From the NCBI GenBank assembly GCA_015272165.1, contig JACYMF010000012.1, forward strand, positions 1 through 64,000: a DNA stretch of 64,000 nt, given 5' to 3'. Source of the DNA: Cyanobacterium sp. T60_A2020_053 (GTDB lineage Bacteria; Cyanobacteriota; Cyanobacteriia; Cyanobacteriales; Cyanobacteriaceae). The position numbers and the translations under genes were made by a program. The notes under the pieces were generated by a model. That model was not told the DNA's origin. It searched no databases and was given only the letters and a program-made list of their open reading frames with translations. Positions 26,393 to 33,299 of the stretch are shown piece after piece (the first letter of the stretch is position 1; every line of letters starts with the position of its first letter).

Positions 26393-26731
26393 ATGGAAAA
26401 AAAAATCTTAAACAATAAAAAAATAAGCATAATAACAGAAAGATTAAAAAAAGAACTTGAACTTATTTATAGTAATAAATTGAGTAGGTTAATTTTATTC
26501 GGTTCACAAGCAAGAGGGGATGCAAATATTGATTCTGATATTGATATATTGGTGGTATTAAAAGGAGAAGTTAAACAAGTTAATGAGATTATGAAAAATA
26601 GCTATCTAATTAGCAATTTATGTTTAGAATATGATGCTTTAATTAATTGCTTTTATATTTCAGAGGAAGCCATGAATAGTCAAAATAAATCTTTAATTCA
26701 AAATATTAATAAAGACGGTATATTAATATGA
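26393..26731 (+). CDS. mntA: MNT-domain nucleotidyltransferase antitoxin
   Basis: 112 aa. The minimal nucleotidyltransferase motif GSQARGDANIDSDIDILVV (near 42-60) has the GS and both catalytic Asp residues. In characterised pairs MntA AMPylates the HEPN RNase toxin to silence it. Its stop overlaps the start of the HEPN gene by four bases (ATGA), the classic arrangement. The first 25 residues are Lys-rich and helical. The start ATG follows an A-rich leader. Confidence 0.85.
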   Translation: MEKKILNNKKISIITERLKKELELIYSNKLSRLILFGSQARGDANIDSDIDILVVLKGEVKQVNEIMKNSYLISNLCLEYDALINCFYISEEAMNSQNKSLIQNINKDGILI

Positions 26732-27114
26732 TTGAAGAAGTCAAAAATCTTTTAATTAAAGCTGAACAAAGTTTAGAAGCATCGAAACTACTATTAGATG
26801 CAAATTATCCTGACTTTGCAGTTACGAGGGCTTATTACACAATGTTTTATGTTGCTTCTGCTTTTTTACTAGCAGAAAAAAATATGACGTTTTCTAAGCA
26901 TTCCGCTGTTATTTCTGCCTTTGGACGAGAATTTGCTAAAACAGGTTTAATTCCTCGAAAATATCACCAATTTCTCAAACAAGCTCAAGATTTAAGACAT
27001 TTGGGAGATTATGGAGATGTTAATGTTATTCAACAACCAGAAGCCATAATACAAATACAAAACGCTGAAGATTTTTTATCATTTACAATTAACTATTTTC
27101 TTAGTAAAAGTTAG
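26728..27114 (+). CDS. hepT: HEPN-domain toxin
   Basis: 128 aa, four-helix HEPN protein paired with the preceding MNT gene. The region ALLLAEKN-type FLLAEKNMTFSKHSAVISA and the tail QDLRHLGDYGD follow the HEPN pattern. The usual catalytic R-x4-6-H is less clear: the sequence offers RKYHQ and RHLGDY, so this may be the divergent COG1895-like branch rather than the HepT branch with RxxxxH. Ends six bases before an AGCGCCC motif. RNase activity is inferred from the family only. Confidence 0.78.
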   Translation: MIEEVKNLLIKAEQSLEASKLLLDANYPDFAVTRAYYTMFYVASAFLLAEKNMTFSKHSAVISAFGREFAKTGLIPRKYHQFLKQAQDLRHLGDYGDVNVIQQPEAIIQIQNAEDFLSFTINYFLSKS

Positions 27115-27120
27115 TGATAA

Positions 27121-27155
27121 AGCGCCCTCCACCTCAAACCGTGCGCCCTTCACCA
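27121..27155. repeat. motif pair between two toxin-antitoxin cassettes
   Basis: AGCGCCCTCCACC at 27121-27133 and a variant TGCGCCCTTCACC at 27142-27154, both in the same orientation, fill most of the gap between the MNT-HEPN pair and the HicBA pair. Confidence 0.8.
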
Positions 27156-27224
27156 CAACCCAGCCTTCTGTTGAATATGTTACGATAATTGGGGTATTCG
27201 GCATAAACGCAAATGAGAATATAG

Positions 27225-27467
27225 ATGAAAAAACTAATCAAACTAACCATTGAAAAATTAGTGGAAAAAGAAGAAGAATACTTCATTGCCACCAGTGAAG
27301 ATTTACAAGGATTAGTCGCAGAAGGAAAAACTATACCAGAAGTCATTGAAATTGCACAGGATGTGGCGAAAATTCTCTGGGAATTAGAAAAAGAAAATAA
27401 CTATATTCAGTCAAATATTTCAGATTTTCCCTCTACGTTTGAATATCCTTTAATTTTGGAGGTTTGA
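27225..27467 (+). CDS. HicB-like (DUF1902-type) antitoxin
   Basis: 80 aa. The N-terminal half forms a partial RNase-H-like HicB fold: LTIEKLVEKEEEYFIATSED, then LQGLVAEGKTIPEVIEIAQD. The C-terminal half is short and has no evident ribbon-helix-helix, as in DUF1902 members. It precedes the HicA-like toxin with the stop and next start sharing one base (TGATG), so they are coupled. Identification by the GLVAEGKT pattern and its partner. Confidence 0.8.
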   Translation: MKKLIKLTIEKLVEKEEEYFIATSEDLQGLVAEGKTIPEVIEIAQDVAKILWELEKENNYIQSNISDFPSTFEYPLILEV

Positions 27468-27688
27468 TGGGTAGATTATCTGGTTTCTCTTACTTACAAG
27501 TAGCTAAAAAAATGAAAAAACTAGGATTTCAGTTTTATAGAAGCGCAAAAGGAGATCATGAAATCTGGTTTAATGCAGACACAAAACAAAAAACGGTTAT
27601 TCCTCATCATCGAGAATTAAAAGAAGGTACTTTAAGAAACATATTAAAACAGGCAAGTATTGATATTGATCAATTTCTTAATAGTTAA
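27467..27688 (+). CDS. hicA: HicA-like mRNA interferase toxin
   Basis: 73 aa, dsRNA-binding-like HicA fold. The motif GFQFYRSAKGDHEIWFN contains the His (GDHEIW) aligned with the catalytic histidine of HicA. Further on are KTVIPHHRELKEGTLRNILK, with the typical PxHxxELxxGTLxxILKQ pattern. The ATG at 27467 has GGAGG six to ten bases upstream inside the antitoxin gene; a TTG one codon earlier is rejected. Expected to cleave mRNA when free of the antitoxin. Confidence 0.88.
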   Translation: MGRLSGFSYLQVAKKMKKLGFQFYRSAKGDHEIWFNADTKQKTVIPHHRELKEGTLRNILKQASIDIDQFLNS

Positions 27689-27727
27689 CCCATAGAGTAT
27701 TAATAATATGTTTTTTTGAGAAAACCC

Positions 27728-27740
27728 AGCGCCCTCCACC
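27728..27740. repeat. motif between HicBA and PIN cassettes
   Basis: AGCGCCCTCCACC, identical to the copy at 27121, lies in the 77-base gap between the convergent hicA and PIN genes. Confidence 0.8.
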
Positions 27741-27765
27741 ATAAACCACTCTCGGTGGTTTAATT

Positions 27766-28191
27766 TTAATTAAAAGGATTAATAATTGTTAGTTTTTTCT
27801 CTATCGTTAATTTGTGTTGCATATCTTCTGAATAGAAAATATTTACATCAGCAAATAAAGCGGATGCAATAATTAAACTATCCCAAAATGAAAAGCAATA
27901 TTTCCCTCTGACATTAGAAGCTAATTCATAGATATTTTGATTAAACTGTATAATTTGATAACGATTATAAAAAGAGTTAATTAAATTTAAGATACTACTT
28001 TCATCTAGTTTGTGTTTTTTAAATAGATTAAATGATACTTCATTAACCACTTGTGTACTAATTACTATTTCCTTTTCTTGGATAAGTTGTTTCGCTAAAA
28101 TTCTTTTATTTTCTTCTTTATCATTGGTAGAAAAAGCATAAAGCCAAATATTAGAATCAACAAAACAAAGAGATGTGTTATTCTCTGTCAT
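27766..28191 (-). CDS. PIN-domain toxin (VapC-like)
   Basis: 141 aa. Acidic residues of the PIN nuclease site are visible: FVDSNIWLYAF (Asp11), VVNEVSFNL (Glu in the second motif), SFWDSLIIASALFA and YSEDMQ near the C-terminus. This order matches VapC-type toxins, which cleave tRNA or rRNA. Its start overlaps the antitoxin stop by 14 bases. The gene converges on hicA across a short gap holding the dispersed motif. Target unknown. Confidence 0.85.
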   Translation of the reverse strand: MTENNTSLCFVDSNIWLYAFSTNDKEENKRILAKQLIQEKEIVISTQVVNEVSFNLFKKHKLDESSILNLINSFYNRYQIIQFNQNIYELASNVRGKYCFSFWDSLIIASALFADVNIFYSEDMQHKLTIEKKLTIINPFN

Positions 28192-28375
28192 AAATTTGAT
28201 CTCGTGTCATAAATTGTAAATTATCTACTGCTAAAGGATTCTCTAATAAATGATTAATCATATCAAATTTTAATTTCTTTTCATCTGATTTATTTTTAGC
28301 TTTTAATGCTGATATAATTTCCTCAATATATTTAATTTGTTCAGGTTTTAACTCAGATATATTAATAGTTTTCAT
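28178..28375 (-). CDS. antitoxin of the PIN pair
   Basis: 65 aa from the ATG at 28375; a longer frame to 28420 adds a Lys-rich, non-conserved stretch and is rejected. The protein begins MKTINISELKPEQIKYIEEI and has a basic middle followed by ENPLAVDNLQFMTRDQIYDR. The C-terminal part likely wraps the toxin, the N-terminus binds DNA. I do not recognise the DNA-binding family with certainty. Position and 14-base overlap with the PIN gene support the role. Confidence 0.68.
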   Translation of the reverse strand: MKTINISELKPEQIKYIEEIISALKAKNKSDEKKLKFDMINHLLENPLAVDNLQFMTRDQIYDRE

Positions 28376-28438
28376 CGTCGTTAACTTTTTAGATAATTTG
28401 TACTTTAAATTATAAATCAATTTCTCATTGTTAAAACC

Positions 28439-28476
28439 CAGCGCCCTCCGCCATATTTTACTCCCCTCTCCTGTGG
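28439..28476. repeat. 38-bp direct repeat, right copy
   Basis: Matches 26214-26251 at 36 of 38 positions. It continues directly into a hairpin module of the GTGGGAGAGGGGTTGGGG type (to about 28498). Confidence 0.85.
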
Positions 28477-28502
28477 GAGAGGGGTTGGGGGTGAGGGTAT
28501 CG

Positions 28503-28560
28503 CCGTGTAATGAATTTCACGGCTACCGTGATGCCGTTTAATAAATTAAACTCTTGAGGA
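28503..28560. repeat. degraded piece of the three-hairpin element
   Basis: CCGTGTAATGAATTTCACGG followed by TTTAATAAATTAAACT is recognisable as two mutated hairpins of the element found at 37.2, 41.8, 51.1, 61.9 and 63.4 kb. Confidence 0.5.
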
Positions 28561-28599
28561 AAAGCACCTCTTCACTGTTTTACTTTTTAGTTAAATTTT

Positions 28600-28881
28600 T
28601 TATAAAAAAATTGCTTCTTTTAATACTTGATTTTTGATTATTTCATGAAGATTATGAGGTTTTACTATATCAACTTTTATTCCTAAATAATCCTCTAATT
28701 CTTGCTTTAAGGCAATGGTATTTAAAAGGCTTTTTCCTTTGATTATATCCATTAATAAGTCTAAATCACTATTTTTTGTTGCTTCTTTTCTTGCATAAGA
28801 GCCAAATATTCTCACATTATAACCTTCATATTTAGCACAAATTTTTAATATTGTTTGTTTTTTCTCACTATCTAATATCAT
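28600..28881 (-). CDS. solitary MNT-domain nucleotidyltransferase
   Basis: 93 aa. The motif IFGSYARKEATKNSDLDLLM (near 25-44) has GS and the two Asp of minimal nucleotidyltransferases; the C-terminal part LGIKVDIVKPHNLHEIIKNQ, with the third acidic residue, is typical of MntA antitoxins. No HEPN gene is adjacent on either side, so it may be an orphan antitoxin or the survivor of a degraded pair. It lies just outside the right direct repeat. Confidence 0.78.
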   Translation of the reverse strand: MILDSEKKQTILKICAKYEGYNVRIFGSYARKEATKNSDLDLLMDIIKGKSLLNTIALKQELEDYLGIKVDIVKPHNLHEIIKNQVLKEAIFL

Positions 28882-28981: not shown

Positions 28982-30523
28982 TTACAAATCATATAATATA
29001 AATAATAAAATAATAGAAGGAATTAACCAAATAAAAAATTCAATTATTTTGAATCTTAATTTTTTATCTCTAAAGAGAATATAACGATAAATATAATTAA
29101 GTAAATATGGTAGTATTATTACGCAAAAAATATCAAAGAATGATGTTGAATTATAATAATCTGATTCCTTTAAAAATAAATTATCATCAGCAGCTAAAAA
29201 AATTAACCCAATCATGTGAAAATTAAACAAAGGTAAATTAGCAATTATTGGAAAAATAACAAGCACTTCATTAATATTGAAAAAAGTAATAAAAATTACC
29301 CACCATATCATCATCCAAGCAAAACAATAGAACATTTCCTTTCGGAAAATATTAAATTTTTTCAACCTAAAATTATCAGTATTTACAATTATCTTTTGGA
29401 TAATATTAATATCTTTATCTCTCAAAATTTCCTTCTGCTGAAAAATGCTCGAATTTGCCTGAATTCTTGTTAAAACCCTTTGTTTCGCAGTGGACTTTAT
29501 TCCCGATGGTAACTCAAATATATCAATGCCTAAACTATTTTTACGCGCGCACCAAGAACAAATCTGATCCTGCGCATAATGAATATGACTATCCACTTGA
29601 CTACAAATCTTTAAATCATTCACCGCCTGACTAAGCGCATAATACCAATCTTGCGCGCTTGGACGTGCCGAAGGATTACCATGTCCATCATTAAAACACC
29701 TCAGAAAACAGTTTCTCAGCAAAGGATGAATTATACTTAAAGGCATAGTATTTGGGCTATGGCTTAAAAAATTTTGGTTTCCTTCCAACCAAATACCCCG
29801 TTTAATTAATTCGTTCATATCTGGTTTATCTCCCGATTGCCAAATACCTGAACCAAAAGGATGATAACTAAACAATAATTGATAGATTAACACCCCTAAA
29901 CGGAAGTTATCATGGGCGTAATTTTGTTCTGCTTGATGGAAGTCTTCACCGATTAACTCTGGGGGTGTATAGCCTTCTGTGCCTACCACACAGCGATAAA
30001 TTTCTCCAGTTTGAGGATTTTTGACTTGAAAGGAATCCACATCAATAAAAGTGGGTAAGGCTTGGCTATTAACGAGGATATTTTGCGGTTTGATGTCACC
30101 GATAACATAACCTTCTTGATGAATTACCGCCACGATGGAGGAGATATTGAGGGCGAGATAATGGAGAAAGTGCCAATCAATTTCTAATTTTTTGAGTTTG
30201 CGCCGTTTGGGGTTATAAATATCAATCAATTCCACTGTATCTTTAATGTGATACATCAAAAAACCGACTAATTGTCCTTTATTGTCTTTAATCAGTGATT
30301 GGGGAAAGGTAAAGGAGTGATGATTTTTAGCTTGATTAGGGTCTTGTGGTTGATGGGCGATCATTACCCCTAATTTAACAAATTTTTCGGCGCTGGGCTG
30401 GTGATAAAGTTTGGCTAACATTCCATTCCAGTTAGTTGTCCAAACTTCACCTTCTCCGCTATGGGCGATTTGCTGTATTAAGTTGATGGTTTGATTGGTA
30501 GTGGCGCAAAATAATACTTTCAT
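28982..30523 (-). CDS. YegI-like protein kinase with C-terminal membrane spans
   Basis: 513 aa. Divergent protein kinase domain, residues 20-310: glycine loop SGEGEVW, Lys38, GDIKPQNIL with catalytic Asp143, and DVDSF (161-165) where classical kinases have DFG. A CxxC pair (CSWC, near 329) suggests a small zinc knuckle. From about residue 400 there are roughly four membrane spans. This is the kinase of the vWA-PP2C-kinase (TerY-P/YegL-YegK-YegI) set, with both partners directly upstream on the same strand. The family acts in stress-linked phosphorylation; targets here unknown. Confidence 0.82.
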   Translation of the reverse strand: MKVLFCATTNQTINLIQQIAHSGEGEVWTTNWNGMLAKLYHQPSAEKFVKLGVMIAHQPQDPNQAKNHHSFTFPQSLIKDNKGQLVGFLMYHIKDTVELIDIYNPKRRKLKKLEIDWHFLHYLALNISSIVAVIHQEGYVIGDIKPQNILVNSQALPTFIDVDSFQVKNPQTGEIYRCVVGTEGYTPPELIGEDFHQAEQNYAHDNFRLGVLIYQLLFSYHPFGSGIWQSGDKPDMNELIKRGIWLEGNQNFLSHSPNTMPLSIIHPLLRNCFLRCFNDGHGNPSARPSAQDWYYALSQAVNDLKICSQVDSHIHYAQDQICSWCARKNSLGIDIFELPSGIKSTAKQRVLTRIQANSSIFQQKEILRDKDINIIQKIIVNTDNFRLKKFNIFRKEMFYCFAWMMIWWVIFITFFNINEVLVIFPIIANLPLFNFHMIGLIFLAADDNLFLKESDYYNSTSFFDIFCVIILPYLLNYIYRYILFRDKKLRFKIIEFFIWLIPSIILLFILYDL

Positions 30524-30559
30524 CTTTTTCTGGTGTGTTGTAAAAAATTGATGCCCCCT

Positions 30560-30663
30560 AAACCCCTCCTAACCTCCCCTTACAAAGGGGAGGAATAAGA
30601 AAAGAATTGTTTGTTTCTTCCTGTTTACCCTCACCCCCAACCCCTCTCCCACAGGAGAGGGGA
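30560..30663. repeat. CCCCTCTCC hairpin module between kinase and phosphatase genes
   Basis: Contains CCTCACCCCCAACCCCTCTC followed by CCACAGGAGAGGGG. CCCCTCTCC and GGAGAGGGG can pair. A related but different module (CCCCCTAAACCCCTCCTAACC) lies just before it. Confidence 0.75.
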
Positions 30664-30678
30664 GAAAAAAGGGGAGAA

Positions 30679-31455
30679 TTATTCTTCTTCAAGAAGTGCA
30701 AGTAATAAGGTTTTGTCATCGGTGGTGCGCGCGTTTAAGCGCTCGGAGTTGAGAAAGTCTTGAATATAATTATCTTGATCTGTTTCTGTGGTTTCTCGCA
30801 AATATTCTTCTAAGGGATTAAAGAAAGGGAGAAAGGGTTGTTTATTTTTGTATTGAATGGCGACTTTTTCTAAGCCATCGGTCGATGCACAGAGAAAATA
30901 TGGTTTAGTTTCTAATATTTTAACCTGCATTTCTGCCACAGCATTACTTGAGGTTACAAAAGTAGTTTCGTTAATATATTCCCCTTTATCGGCATCAAAG
31001 ATAAGATTAAGATCACCGTCTGAGGTTTTGTAAACCATAAAACCATCACCGATTTGCATAGCGAGAAGCCATTGGGGAGTGGCTACAAATACCATCAATG
31101 TACAAGCTAAATCTTGATCACTACAGTTTAAATCTTCTGCTTTTTTGTCAATATTAATCAATATTTCATTTAATAAGTTGATAAAATGATCTTTGGCTTG
31201 TGGTAGTTTTGGTGGGTGAGAATTACCATTTAAGCCTTTTTGCTGACATAGTTTACGAAAGTAAGATAAAGCAGTTTCTACGGCAACTCCAGCGCCCTCC
31301 GCCGAGTGAAGAGCGCTACCTGCGCCATCCGCCACCGCACCGACTATGACATCAGAAGTTAATAATGCAAAATTACTATAATCTTGACAAGGTTGCTGGG
31401 TGTGGTGATGGGCGCTACCGATGGCACAATGGGCAATAGCTTTCCATTTTTTCAT
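30679..31455 (-). CDS. PP2C-type protein phosphatase
   Basis: 258 aa, PPM-family phosphatase of the YegK type. Metal-binding Asp residues: QDYS (Asp25), VADGAGSA (Asp43), QIGDGFMVY in the middle and DDKTLLLALL near the C-terminus. It is short of N-terminal extensions and has no membrane span. It lies between the vWA and kinase genes and is expected to reverse the kinase's phosphorylation. Start ATG at 31455; the space upstream to the vWA gene is filled with tandem hairpins. Confidence 0.87.
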   Translation of the reverse strand: MKKWKAIAHCAIGSAHHHTQQPCQDYSNFALLTSDVIVGAVADGAGSALHSAEGAGVAVETALSYFRKLCQQKGLNGNSHPPKLPQAKDHFINLLNEILINIDKKAEDLNCSDQDLACTLMVFVATPQWLLAMQIGDGFMVYKTSDGDLNLIFDADKGEYINETTFVTSSNAVAEMQVKILETKPYFLCASTDGLEKVAIQYKNKQPFLPFFNPLEEYLRETTETDQDNYIQDFLNSERLNARTTDDKTLLLALLEEE

Positions 31456-31493
31456 AGAGATTTTTTATCGTGATGTAAAATTTAATCCAATAG

Positions 31494-31679
31494 CCCCTCT
31501 CCTGTGGGAGAGGGGTTGGGGTGAGGGTAATTTCTCCTGTGGGAGAGGGGTTGGGGTGAGGGTAATTTCTCCTGTGGGAGAGGGGTTGGGGTGAGGGTAA
31601 TTTCTCCTGTGGGAGAGGGGTTGTGGGGTGAGGGTAAAAAAATAGCCCCTCTCCTGTGGGAGAGGGGTTGGGGTGAGGG
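31494..31679. repeat. 35-bp tandem hairpin array inside the vWA-PP2C gap
   Basis: Five copies of a unit with TCTCCTGTGGGAGAGGGG and GTTGGGGTGAGGG. Copies start at 31498, 31533, 31568, 31603 and 31650 (period 35, then 47). The first and last also have CCCC before the unit, giving longer stems. The array begins 39 bases upstream of the phosphatase start and ends two bases from the vWA stop codon. Confidence 0.93.
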
Positions 31680-31681
31680 CA

Positions 31682-32344
31682 TTAAGTAGAAACACTCCCC
31701 CAACCAACGGGAGGTAATGACACAGCCTCGCCAATTTTACCAGTGGAAACGCGCTTCATGGAACTACTCAACCACACAAATAATTCTCTAAAGTCTAACC
31801 CATTAAGCAAGATCGGAGGGCGCTGTGGTACAGCAATTTGTTTTAAAATATTCATATTAGCGCCCTCCACCGCCACCGCAAAAAATGAACAACGTCTTTG
31901 AGATTCTGCTTCATGGAGTCTCTTAACCACAAATTGCCAATCATCCGTAGGCGCACCATCGGTAATCAGAAAAATCCAAGGACGATAATAAGCGATACCA
32001 TTATCCTTGTAAGTTACTTTCCTTTCCTCTAATAAATCTAAGGCTTTATCGATGGCTTCTCCCATGGGAGTGCGCTCACCAGCTTCTAAAACGGGCGGAA
32101 TAAATTCATCAATGGTAGTAAAATCTTGGATTTTTTGCACACCATTACAGCCAAAAGTAATGATAGCTAATTCAATGCTGAGGGTTGCCTGAGTGTCTTT
32201 TAAAACGTCCTGTTTAAAAGTGTTAATACCCCTATTTAACTCTTGTATCGGTTGCCCAGACATCGATCCTGACGTGTCTAAGAGCAGAATTACGGGGCAA
32301 CGGTTTTCGGGGTTATCGGCAAATTCTGGTAATCCTATGGGCAT
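31682..32344 (-). CDS. vWA-domain protein of the TerY type
   Basis: 220 aa, a stand-alone von Willebrand A domain. The MIDAS metal site is complete: DTSGSMSG (23-30), Thr92 in ERTPMGEA and ITDGAP (127-132). It starts MPIGLPEFADNPENRCPVIL, like E. coli YegL and TerY proteins. First gene of the vWA-PP2C-kinase unit. In the Ter-associated systems described by comparative genomics this protein is thought to organise metal- or stress-dependent complexes. No terC/terD genes are in this window. Confidence 0.87.
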   Translation of the reverse strand: MPIGLPEFADNPENRCPVILLLDTSGSMSGQPIQELNRGINTFKQDVLKDTQATLSIELAIITFGCNGVQKIQDFTTIDEFIPPVLEAGERTPMGEAIDKALDLLEERKVTYKDNGIAYYRPWIFLITDGAPTDDWQFVVKRLHEAESQRRCSFFAVAVEGANMNILKQIAVPQRPPILLNGLDFRELFVWLSSSMKRVSTGKIGEAVSLPPVGWGSVST

Positions 32345-32428
32345 AGCTCAAAATAGTAAAAATTTATGCTCTATTTTAGCATTGAGTATTAGAGCTTTTT
32401 TATATTTATTACTTGATTGGAGGGCGCT

Positions 32429-32974
32429 TTATAAAGTCGCTGTAGGGAAAAGAAAGCGCGCTAATGCTAACAATAAAGCTATGACAATTCCACCGCCAAT
32501 AGCGCGCGCAATAAATTCTAAATTTGATAGTCTTTTATCTAATCCTTCAAACTTATCTTTAAGACTGGTTTCTGCATTATCAAATTGAGTACCTACATTA
32601 TCAAATTTAGTGTCCACATTGGCAAATTTGGTGTCCACATTGGCAAATTTAGTATTCATTTTTTCTTCTAAACTGGCAAAACGAGTATTAATATTTTCTT
32701 CTAAACTGGCAAAGCGATTATTAATACTTGCCTCCATACTGACAAAGCGATTATTAATACTTGCTTCCAAACTGCCAAAGCGATTATTAACACTTGTTTC
32801 TAAATTGTTTAATCTTTCATCGAGTTTAGCAACATCTATTTTTACTTGATTAATTTCATGAGATAAATAATCAATTTTATCTTCTACTTTATCAATTTTG
32901 TTTTCTAATTTATCCATCTTAGACTCTAAACGAGTCAAAAAATCAGCGATATTAACTTCAATAGTTTGATTCAT
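32429..32974 (-). CDS. coiled-coil protein with C-terminal membrane anchor (long paralogue)
   Basis: 181 aa. Starts MNQTIEVNIADFLTRLESKM, then a continuous coiled coil, then one C-terminal span (GGGIVIALLLALARFLFP). The coiled coil contains four 11-residue repeats (NNRFxSLEASI type, residues about 63-106) followed by four 7-residue repeats (TKFANVD type, about 107-136). The DNA repeats accordingly with 33- and 21-base periods. It is a paralogue of the next gene, with near-identical ends. It lies 84 bases upstream of the vWA gene on the same strand. Function unknown; tail-anchored topology is inferred. Confidence 0.75.
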   Translation of the reverse strand: MNQTIEVNIADFLTRLESKMDKLENKIDKVEDKIDYLSHEINQVKIDVAKLDERLNNLETSVNNRFGSLEASINNRFVSMEASINNRFASLEENINTRFASLEEKMNTKFANVDTKFANVDTKFDNVGTQFDNAETSLKDKFEGLDKRLSNLEFIARAIGGGIVIALLLALARFLFPTATL

Positions 32975-33035
32975 ATATAATTAACTCCCAATTTTTATTT
33001 TTATCATATCATTTTGGCATGAGGTGAAGGGCGCT

Positions 33036-33299
33036 TTATAACGTTGCTGTAGGGAAAAGGAAGCGCGCTAATGCTAACAATAAAGCTACCACAATTCCAC
33101 CGCCAATAGTACGCGCAATAAATTCTAAATTAGATAGTCTTTTATCTACACCATTAATTTTTTCATCAAGTTTACCAACATCTACTTTTACTTGGTTAAC
33201 TTCATTGGATAAATGGTCTATTTTATCGTCTAATTTATCAATTTTGGACTCCATACGAGCCAAAATATCAGCGATATTAACTTCAATAATTTGATTCAT
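33036..33299 (-). CDS. coiled-coil protein with C-terminal membrane anchor (short paralogue)
   Basis: 87 aa. N-terminal 45 residues (MNQIIEVNIADILARMESKI onward) and the C-terminal 35 (KRLSNLEFIAR, then the GGGIVVALLLALARFLFP span) are almost the same as in the neighbouring 181-aa protein; the 11- and 7-residue repeats are absent. It is probably the ancestral form of a tandem duplication, and the long copy expanded by repeat slippage. First gene of a co-directional run leading into the vWA-PP2C-kinase unit. Confidence 0.73.
   Translation of the reverse strand: MNQIIEVNIADILARMESKIDKLDDKIDHLSNEVNQVKVDVGKLDEKINGVDKRLSNLEFIARTIGGGIVVALLLALARFLFPTATL

Follow-up and report, generated by a model that had tools for sequence, protein, structure and literature searches.

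Five genes lie in one orientation at positions 28982 to 33299 of the window, by which we mean the whole 64,000-nucleotide stretch of Cyanobacterium sp. T60_A2020_053 that was analysed. All five open reading frames were confirmed, every one on the minus strand, as the initial annotation had it. In the direction of transcription they are CC2 (33036..33299, 87 aa) and CC1 (32429..32974, 181 aa, with in-frame repeats at 33-nt spacing), both tail-anchored coiled-coil proteins and probably neighbours outside the triad; a YegL/TerY-like vWA protein (31682..32344, 220 aa); a PphC/YegK-type PP2C phosphatase (30679..31455, 258 aa); and a YegI-type Ser/Thr kinase (28982..30523, 513 aa).

A vWA-PP2C-kinase triad with intact sequence motifs

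The assignment of the last three genes to these families, also proposed from the sequence in the initial annotation, was borne out by profile matches, by identity to the E. coli proteins and by gene order, which is that of E. coli yegL-pphC-yegI. The vWA protein matched Pfam VWA (7.9e-10), showed 55% identity to YegL and retained the MIDAS residues D23-S25-S27...T92...D129, which were invariant in 15 sequences, while the phosphatase matched PP2C_2 (1.2e-50), showed 31% identity to PphC and retained the metal-binding residues D43, D137, D193, D246 and D247, invariant in nine. The kinase matched Pkinase (5e-13) and showed 30% identity to YegI over 358 aa; within its head (aa 1-340), K38, D143, D161 and D163 were invariant in 26 kinases including YegI, as were C307-H313-C322-C325. 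Behind its catalytic domain the kinase thus carries a putative C-terminal zinc-binding segment, and the three genes are adjacent and co-directional, both being traits of YegL-PphC-YegI and TerY-P triads. The AF2 model of the kinase head reached block means of at least 91 and aligned with solved protein kinases at Z ~20 over ~250 residues, and the 60 best of the 406 matches of the kinase sequence to solved structures were all to general kinases; neither the vWA protein nor the phosphatase had a sequence match to a solved structure at E <= 0.01. Kinase matches at E <= 1e-10 occurred in 42 of 80 genomes (matching the tail only in G008 and G014) and vWA matches in 40 of 80, the window's own genome being counted in both.

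The gaps between the five genes, which the initial annotation did not mention, measure 61 nt (CC2-CC1), 84 nt (CC1-vWA), 226 nt (vWA-PP2C) and 155 nt (PP2C-kinase). A dispersed C-rich repeat of ~35 nt, present there in about five copies (31489..31679, minus strand), fills the longest gap and includes a terminator-like hairpin (31667-31646, minus strand), and an inverted copy (30625..30662, plus strand) lies between the phosphatase and kinase genes. Genome-wide, the repeat has at least 44 matching places, this locus counted. The triads of G004, G011 and G013 have spacings of 3-12 nt between their genes, as expected of an operon, with a vWA-PP2C gap of 9-12 nt. Together with the position of the hairpin, which has nine pairs and lies ~15 nt past the vWA stop codon, this could indicate a partly decayed triad, in which repeats have split the operon so that the vWA gene is no longer coupled to those of the phosphatase and kinase. 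We regard such decay as improbable, given that all three frames and their motifs are intact, that hairpins were not more frequent than in shuffled sequence (three found, 3.5 expected), and that the corresponding gap in G032 is also longer (123 nt) with intact frames.

A variable tail on a conserved kinase head

The initial annotation gave the kinase four membrane spans. Hydropathy identified three in the tail (aa ~346-513) at the cut-off used, 409-427, 465-483 and 493-511; a fourth is likely from alignment with homologues showing four or five, so the number four is plausible without being firm. The AF2 model is of low confidence in the tail (blocks 39-76), and we claim no fold for it.

The tail is not a constant feature of this kinase family. 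In the window's genome it is a membrane module of three to four spans common to non-kinase proteins, and in other genomes the corresponding region is WD40, TPR, GUN4, FGE, PQQ or ARC6-IMS. Even among close relatives the tail differs while the head is conserved up to the invariant C-H-C-C site at its end; the kinases of G032 and G058, for example, differ in their tails although their heads are almost the same. These patterns suggest, tentatively, that the cyanobacterial triad kinase may be a receptor with a fixed head and an exchangeable tail, in which membrane bundles, WD40, TPR, GUN4, FGE, PQQ propellers and other modules, here the membrane module that non-kinase proteins use as well, would be swapped between close relatives directly behind the C-H-C-C site, and the vWA-PP2C pair would be the constant read-out of changing inputs. 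The locus thus points to a better question: what makes this kinase retain a constant head, the C-H-C-C site and the same two partners when the tail changes.

Distribution of the coiled-coil genes

CC1 and CC2 are coiled coils with one hydrophobic segment each, at the C-terminus. They are tail-anchored paralogues, as the initial annotation described, and recent tandem duplicates, sharing a 146-nt stretch that is 88% identical and extends 11 nt beyond the stop codon. Their Pfam and NCBIfam matches were coiled-coil models, nearly all under their cut-offs, the exceptions being that CC1 just reached the cut-off of Baculo_PEP_C and passed those of Sec3_CC and Prefoldin_2; we took such matches as reflecting composition, not homology, and adopted no family name from them. 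XhlA (PF10779), one of 84 families matching coiled-coil members, many of them coiled coils, scored 20.7 bits with CC2 and 27.2 bits with CC1, both below the Pfam gathering score of 34.7, and matched 15 of 30 family members at E <= 1e-3 (best 3.4e-8). A literature search aimed at the family found nothing on it among the titles listed, which is no proof of its absence from print.

From their fixed direction and proximity, the initial annotation had suggested that the coiled-coil proteins form a membrane scaffold for the signalling unit, and had proposed their co-occurrence with the triad in other genomes as a check. That co-occurrence was not seen. The comparison covered 29 other vWA loci, 1.3 kb or more of upstream sequence being available at 27 and contig ends cutting the remaining two. 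No coiled-coil gene of this type lay upstream of the vWA gene at any of them, and a by-eye reading of the open reading frames listed there revealed no small tail-anchored coiled-coil frame. Nor did the wider flanks of the triads in G002, G010, G012 and G020 and in G004, G011 and G013 contain such a gene. Conversely, a signalling gene was found within ~1.5 kb of only one of 41 other coiled-coil loci, and that gene is a different kinase. A scan of genome contigs with CC1 yielded one relative (L022), with no triad within the 8 kb covered there. Over 80 genomes, presence of the coiled-coil family was uncorrelated with that of the kinase (11/18/25/26, Fisher p 0.36). The family is scattered, with 15 intact copies in this genome; 12 further copies inspected in it share no constant neighbour or orientation, so the fixed direction does not hold beyond this locus, and tandem pairs or triples also occur at L064, L068, L069, L076 and L077, all lacking a triad. 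By loci, genome counts and flanks, we therefore rejected the coiled coils as a component of the triad; their proximity to it is most likely a chance neighbourhood.

Two other partnerships were considered. The positions of PF00069 matches in 14 genomes were compared by eye, among the matches listed, with those of the coiled-coil genes. Besides the triad, one directly adjacent pair was found, on contig C25 of the window's own genome (G000), where a coiled-coil gene precedes the gene of a different Ser/Thr kinase by 207 nt, both on one strand; the next nearest pairs among those matches were ~1.9 kb (G005, C103) and ~2.9 kb (G020, C105) apart. Within the set, L071 is most closely related to the C25 copy, yet its flanks contain no kinase. 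A general partnership with Ser/Thr kinases was rejected as a rule. Conserved association with hemJ/rnc was likewise rejected, no copy being present at 10 of 11 hemJ loci (~1.5 kb of flank, less at contig ends) and the exception being the window's own; in G011 a coiled-coil gene lies 824 nt from hemJ.

A narrower form of the scaffold idea is that only this lineage took up the pair, to dock the triad at the membrane. CC1 lies 84 nt upstream of the vWA start and shares its strand, which would allow read-through at this locus; CC1 and CC2 were duplicated recently, and a further copy stands upstream of another kinase, so that two of the 15 copies in this genome precede one. The genus is sampled by only five genomes (one 63% complete), among which the window's genome alone has both genes together, and a lineage-specific adoption would go unseen in relatives; a diverged scaffold could also be missed because coiled-coil similarity is hard to detect. 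Nevertheless, the lack of recurrence at the 29 other vWA loci, the absence of any such gene near the triads of G004, G011 and G013, the scattered family with its tandem arrays away from triads, and the kinase's own membrane tail make such a dock very improbable. Because that tail already gives membrane attachment, the kinase needs no separate scaffold. With this, the coiled-coil scaffold that had been suggested as a new component drops out of a signalling triad which is widespread but little understood.

Proposed function and comparison with known systems

We conclude that 28982-32344 very probably encodes a reversible phosphorylation switch of the YegL-PphC-YegI (TerY-P) type with a self-anchored kinase, and that the coiled-coil genes, which come from a scattered family with many copies and no relation to the switch, lie upstream by chance. 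Beyond the motifs, homology and gene order established here, the proposed activity, partners and substrates follow by analogy from E. coli YegI/PphC and the TerY-P literature. The kinase, which its C-terminal spans anchor in the membrane, would phosphorylate itself and/or targets; the phosphatase would undo this phosphorylation, in the way that passages of PMC13232886 describe PP2C reversing kinase autophosphorylation in E. coli; and the vWA protein, through its MIDAS metal site, may be an adaptor or a target.

The triad might instead be an anti-phage or stress-defence module of the TerY-P type, not a housekeeping signal pathway. Passages of PMC11090510 tie TerY-P triads to restriction systems and, citing Gao et al. 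2020, report similar modules active against phages. The triad of G004, a genome of the same genus, has type III-B Cmr/Cas10 genes on one side and CARF-RelE/Csx3 genes on the other, a diverged triad in G002 adjoins a protein that is helicase-like and fits the MkoA defence model, and toxin-antitoxin genes flank the triad here and in G011 (the tested proteins being picked by eye). Toxin-antitoxin genes are, however, common in such cyanobacteria, and triad flanks vary among genomes. The window's kinase matched defence-system kinase models such as mad6 (1.3e-9), though as a kinase, and we read its PADLOC matches as general kinase similarity; the vWA protein matched the PADLOC TerY model at 0.0085 only, and the phosphatase matched none. 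The operon lacks a nuclease or other effector. A defence role is thus unlikely, if deserving of some weight, and we retain the phosphorylation switch as the preferred reading.

Among known systems, yegL-pphC(yegK)-yegI of E. coli K-12 agrees with the window's triad in all three families and in their order, and the YegI head, including its C, H, C and C residues, is homologous to that of the window's kinase. The two differ in that the E. coli cluster has yegJ between, which the window's triad lacks, and in the catalytic loop, GDIKPQN here, closer to ordinary Ser/Thr kinases, versus GDVNQNS in YegI. The tails showed no similarity in our comparison, although YegI too is described as membrane bound in passages of PMC13232886, so a membrane-bound kinase is nothing out of the ordinary in this family.

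The TerY-P triad (Anantharaman et al. 2012) differs in that no ter, nuclease or CoCoNuT genes were seen beside the window's triad, the genome's three TerD genes all lying on other contigs (C79, C65 and C37), and in that the window's kinase ends in membrane spans. According to passages of PMC11090510 and PMC4978471, it likewise combines a vWA protein and a PP2C with a Ser/Thr kinase that has a zinc-binding segment behind it. Finally, passages of PMC2176072 and PMC1262709 already describe domain shuffling in cyanobacterial Ser/Thr kinases, and kinases that carry WD40, TPR, GUN4 or DUF323 domains, features shared with the triad kinase family; these passages mention neither the vWA-PP2C triad nor an exchange point following a C-H-C-C site, and the term "von Willebrand" is absent from PMC2176072. 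Since such shuffling has been published before, the three genes are, as judged from sequence, the cyanobacterial form of an established three-gene switch for protein phosphorylation, an ordinary member of its kind with a notable kinase tail.

The vWA-PP2C-kinase triad

Five minus-strand open reading frames lie precisely where the initial annotation had placed them, which confirms the observation: in 5' to 3' order, the coiled-coil genes CC2 (33036-33299, 87 aa) and CC1 (32429-32974, 181 aa), followed by genes for a vWA protein (31682-32344, 220 aa), a PP2C phosphatase (30679-31455, 258 aa) and a kinase (28982-30523, 513 aa). The last three had been correctly named as a triad, matching E. coli K-12 yegL-pphC-yegI gene for gene and in the same order, with 55% identity to YegL over 213 aa, 31% to PphC over 262 columns and 30% to YegI over 358 columns. 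The MIDAS residues D23, S25, S27, T92 and D129 were unchanged across 15 vWA proteins, including that of E. coli and one diverged copy, as were D43, D137, D193, D246 and D247 across nine PP2Cs. Similarly, K38, D143, D161 and D163 together with C307, H313, C322 and C325 were unchanged across 26 kinases, comprising that of the window, YegI and 24 of the 29 other loci (L032, L042, L046, L047 and L048 were omitted as cut or near-duplicates of another row). Adding three non-kinase relatives of the kinase tail for structure prediction reduced the number of invariant columns, as expected. We read the Cys/His quartet that ends the kinase head (aa 1-340) as a putative zinc-type site, consistent with the zinc ribbon that the available text of PMC11090510 attributes to TerY-P kinases. 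The AlphaFold2 model had block means of at least 91 in the head, which among the 50 matches listed aligned with solved protein kinases at Z 19.8-21.2 over 241-270 residues (rmsd 3.1-4.3).

Kinase matches (E ≤ 1e-10) were present in 42 of the 80 genomes compared, with G008 and G014 matching solely in the tail, and vWA matches in 40, both counts including the window's own genome. Diverged triads in G002 (L121, 1129-7401) and G010 (L122, 868-7757) are followed by a gene for a large protein of ~1,130 aa, which in G002 resembles helicases and gave a match to the defence model MkoA.

Coiled-coil genes and intergenic repeats

The initial annotation had also proposed that CC1 and CC2 form a membrane scaffold for the triad, a role that its own proposed check, co-occurrence in other genomes, does not support: the pairing did not recur at the loci compared. 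From 46 vWA match rows we obtained 30 loci, and none of the 29 outside the window had a coiled-coil relative (E ≤ 1e-3) among the nearest upstream ORFs (up to three, covering at least 1,326 nt in 27 of the 29; L084 and L087 are cut by contig ends). For the triads of G004, G011, G013, G002, G010, G012 and G020, broader flanks were inspected and likewise contained no relative. Conversely, among 41 coiled-coil loci outside the window pair (13 in the own genome and 28 elsewhere, the best per genome; ~1.5 kb per side, less at contig ends; the ORF chosen for L062 is probably antisense), only one had a nearby signalling gene, defined as an E ≤ 1e-6 match to the triad proteins or to other kinases of the own genome. 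This coiled-coil gene, on own-genome contig C25 (L155, 1743-2015), is followed on the same strand, after 207 nt, by a gene for an ordinary Ser/Thr kinase (from 1536 down), distinct from the triad kinase. The next nearest pair of coiled coil and triad, found by comparing match lists by eye, is 9.7 kb apart on opposite strands (G071, contig 84). At the level of whole genomes, kinases (E ≤ 1e-40) occurred in 36 and coiled coils in 29, with both in 11 versus ~13 expected (Fisher p 0.36), or in 10 when the own genome was left out (p 0.34).

CC1 and CC2 are tandem duplicates, each with a single hydrophobic segment at its end and with the head, neck motif and tail common to the whole family. This family was matched (E ≤ 1e-6) in 29 of the 80 genomes, own included, and has 15 intact genes in the own genome, namely the window's two and 13 other loci, as well as one ORF-less remnant on C34. 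Orientation and neighbours vary among these copies, with a petC-like and a chlB-like gene, suggestive of a cyanobacterial source, among the neighbours read by eye, and tandem pairs or triples without a triad occur at L064, L068, L069, L076 and L077. As CC1 (32429-32974), L017 and L009 illustrate, paralogues vary chiefly in the length of a repeat-rich middle, often in steps of 11 residues by eye, the head and tail being more constant.

Transcription signals were close to chance, with 19 promoter-like sites versus 18.5 and three terminator-like sites versus 3.5; the best terminator-like site, a nine-pair hairpin with a T run behind it, is located ~15 nt past the vWA stop. The gap between the vWA and PP2C genes is filled by about five tandem copies of a C-rich repeat of ~35 nt (31489-31679), with an inverted copy past the PP2C gene (30625-30662), and at least 44 places in the own genome, this site included, matched it in the subset of candidates scored. 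Triads of G004, G011 and G013, with spacings of 3-12 nt, are too tightly packed for such inserts, and in G032 the vWA-PP2C gap measures 123 nt. What may be split in this genome, if anything, is the triad itself.

Variable kinase tails

Counting that of the window, 30 kinase loci were compared, and behind the conserved head their tails differ. In 19 of the 29 others, analyzed with Pfam, eight kinases had an above-cut-off tail domain, of six kinds: ARC6-like IMS (L025), WD40 (L026, L031), TPR (L033, L039), FGE-sulfatase (L034), PQQ propeller (L035) and GUN4 (L040); the remaining 11 had none. Only 10 of 55 pairs with heads at least 60% identical had similar tails (E ≤ 1e-3), a count influenced by L032, whose tail is cut at a contig end, and L024, a short, probably frameshifted ORF. 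Some tails are kept between close heads, for example those of L041/L042, L044/L046/L048 and L045/L047/L039.

The clearest apparent tail exchange is between G032 and G058, which belong to one genus and share the same membrane-protein gene upstream. Their kinases (L146 and L147) have heads 91% identical and unrelated tails, TPR by Pfam in G058 and WD40 repeats read by eye, up to the contig end, in G032. DNA identity of 88.7% stops at L146:5490, near kinase codon 338 and ~12 codons beyond the C-H-C-C site, counted from its last Cys.

The window kinase ends in a membrane module (aa ~346-513) of three to four spans, where the initial annotation had counted four. Its relatives, at 45-53% identity over 122-146 columns, are the C-terminal parts of three proteins of 404-418 aa (L118, 3685-4899; L119, 5612-6868; L120, 4085-5299) in which a search found no kinase head, and L118 matched no Pfam family. 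Remoter relatives (31-35% identity) are free-standing proteins of 146-148 aa (L124, 4400-4840; L125, 4583-5029). A 2007 study (PMC2176072) had already described domain shuffling among the Ser/Thr kinases of cyanobacteria (WD40, TPR, GUN4, DUF323), so that the pattern of tail exchange is known in part; its link to the triad and the position of the breakpoint were not found in the available portion of that account.

Gene neighbourhood and comparison with known systems

The main functional rival to a signalling unit of the E. coli type is that the triad is a defence module. In G004, of the same genus, the triad (L114, 657-14514) lies between type III-B CRISPR genes (Cmr4, Cmr3, Cas10b) and CARF-RelE and Csx3-AAA genes, and toxin-antitoxin genes adjoin the triads of G011 and of the window, where 26393-28881 holds a nucleotidyltransferase with HEPN, a HicA toxin gene preceded by its partner, and genes for a PIN protein and for another nucleotidyltransferase. 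Anti-phage action is also reported for TerY-P-like modules in the accessible text of PMC11090510, but the window vWA and PP2C proteins gave weak or no matches to PADLOC models and the operon lacks a nuclease.

For signalling of the E. coli type, the likelier reading, the path from motif to activity is our inference. The kinase would be held at the membrane through its own tail, similar to YegI, which is membrane bound, and would be opposed by the PP2C, as PphC dephosphorylates YegI (both from the available text of PMC13232886), with the vWA protein a likely metal-dependent adaptor. The kinase tail is a modestly interesting feature of an otherwise known type of system.
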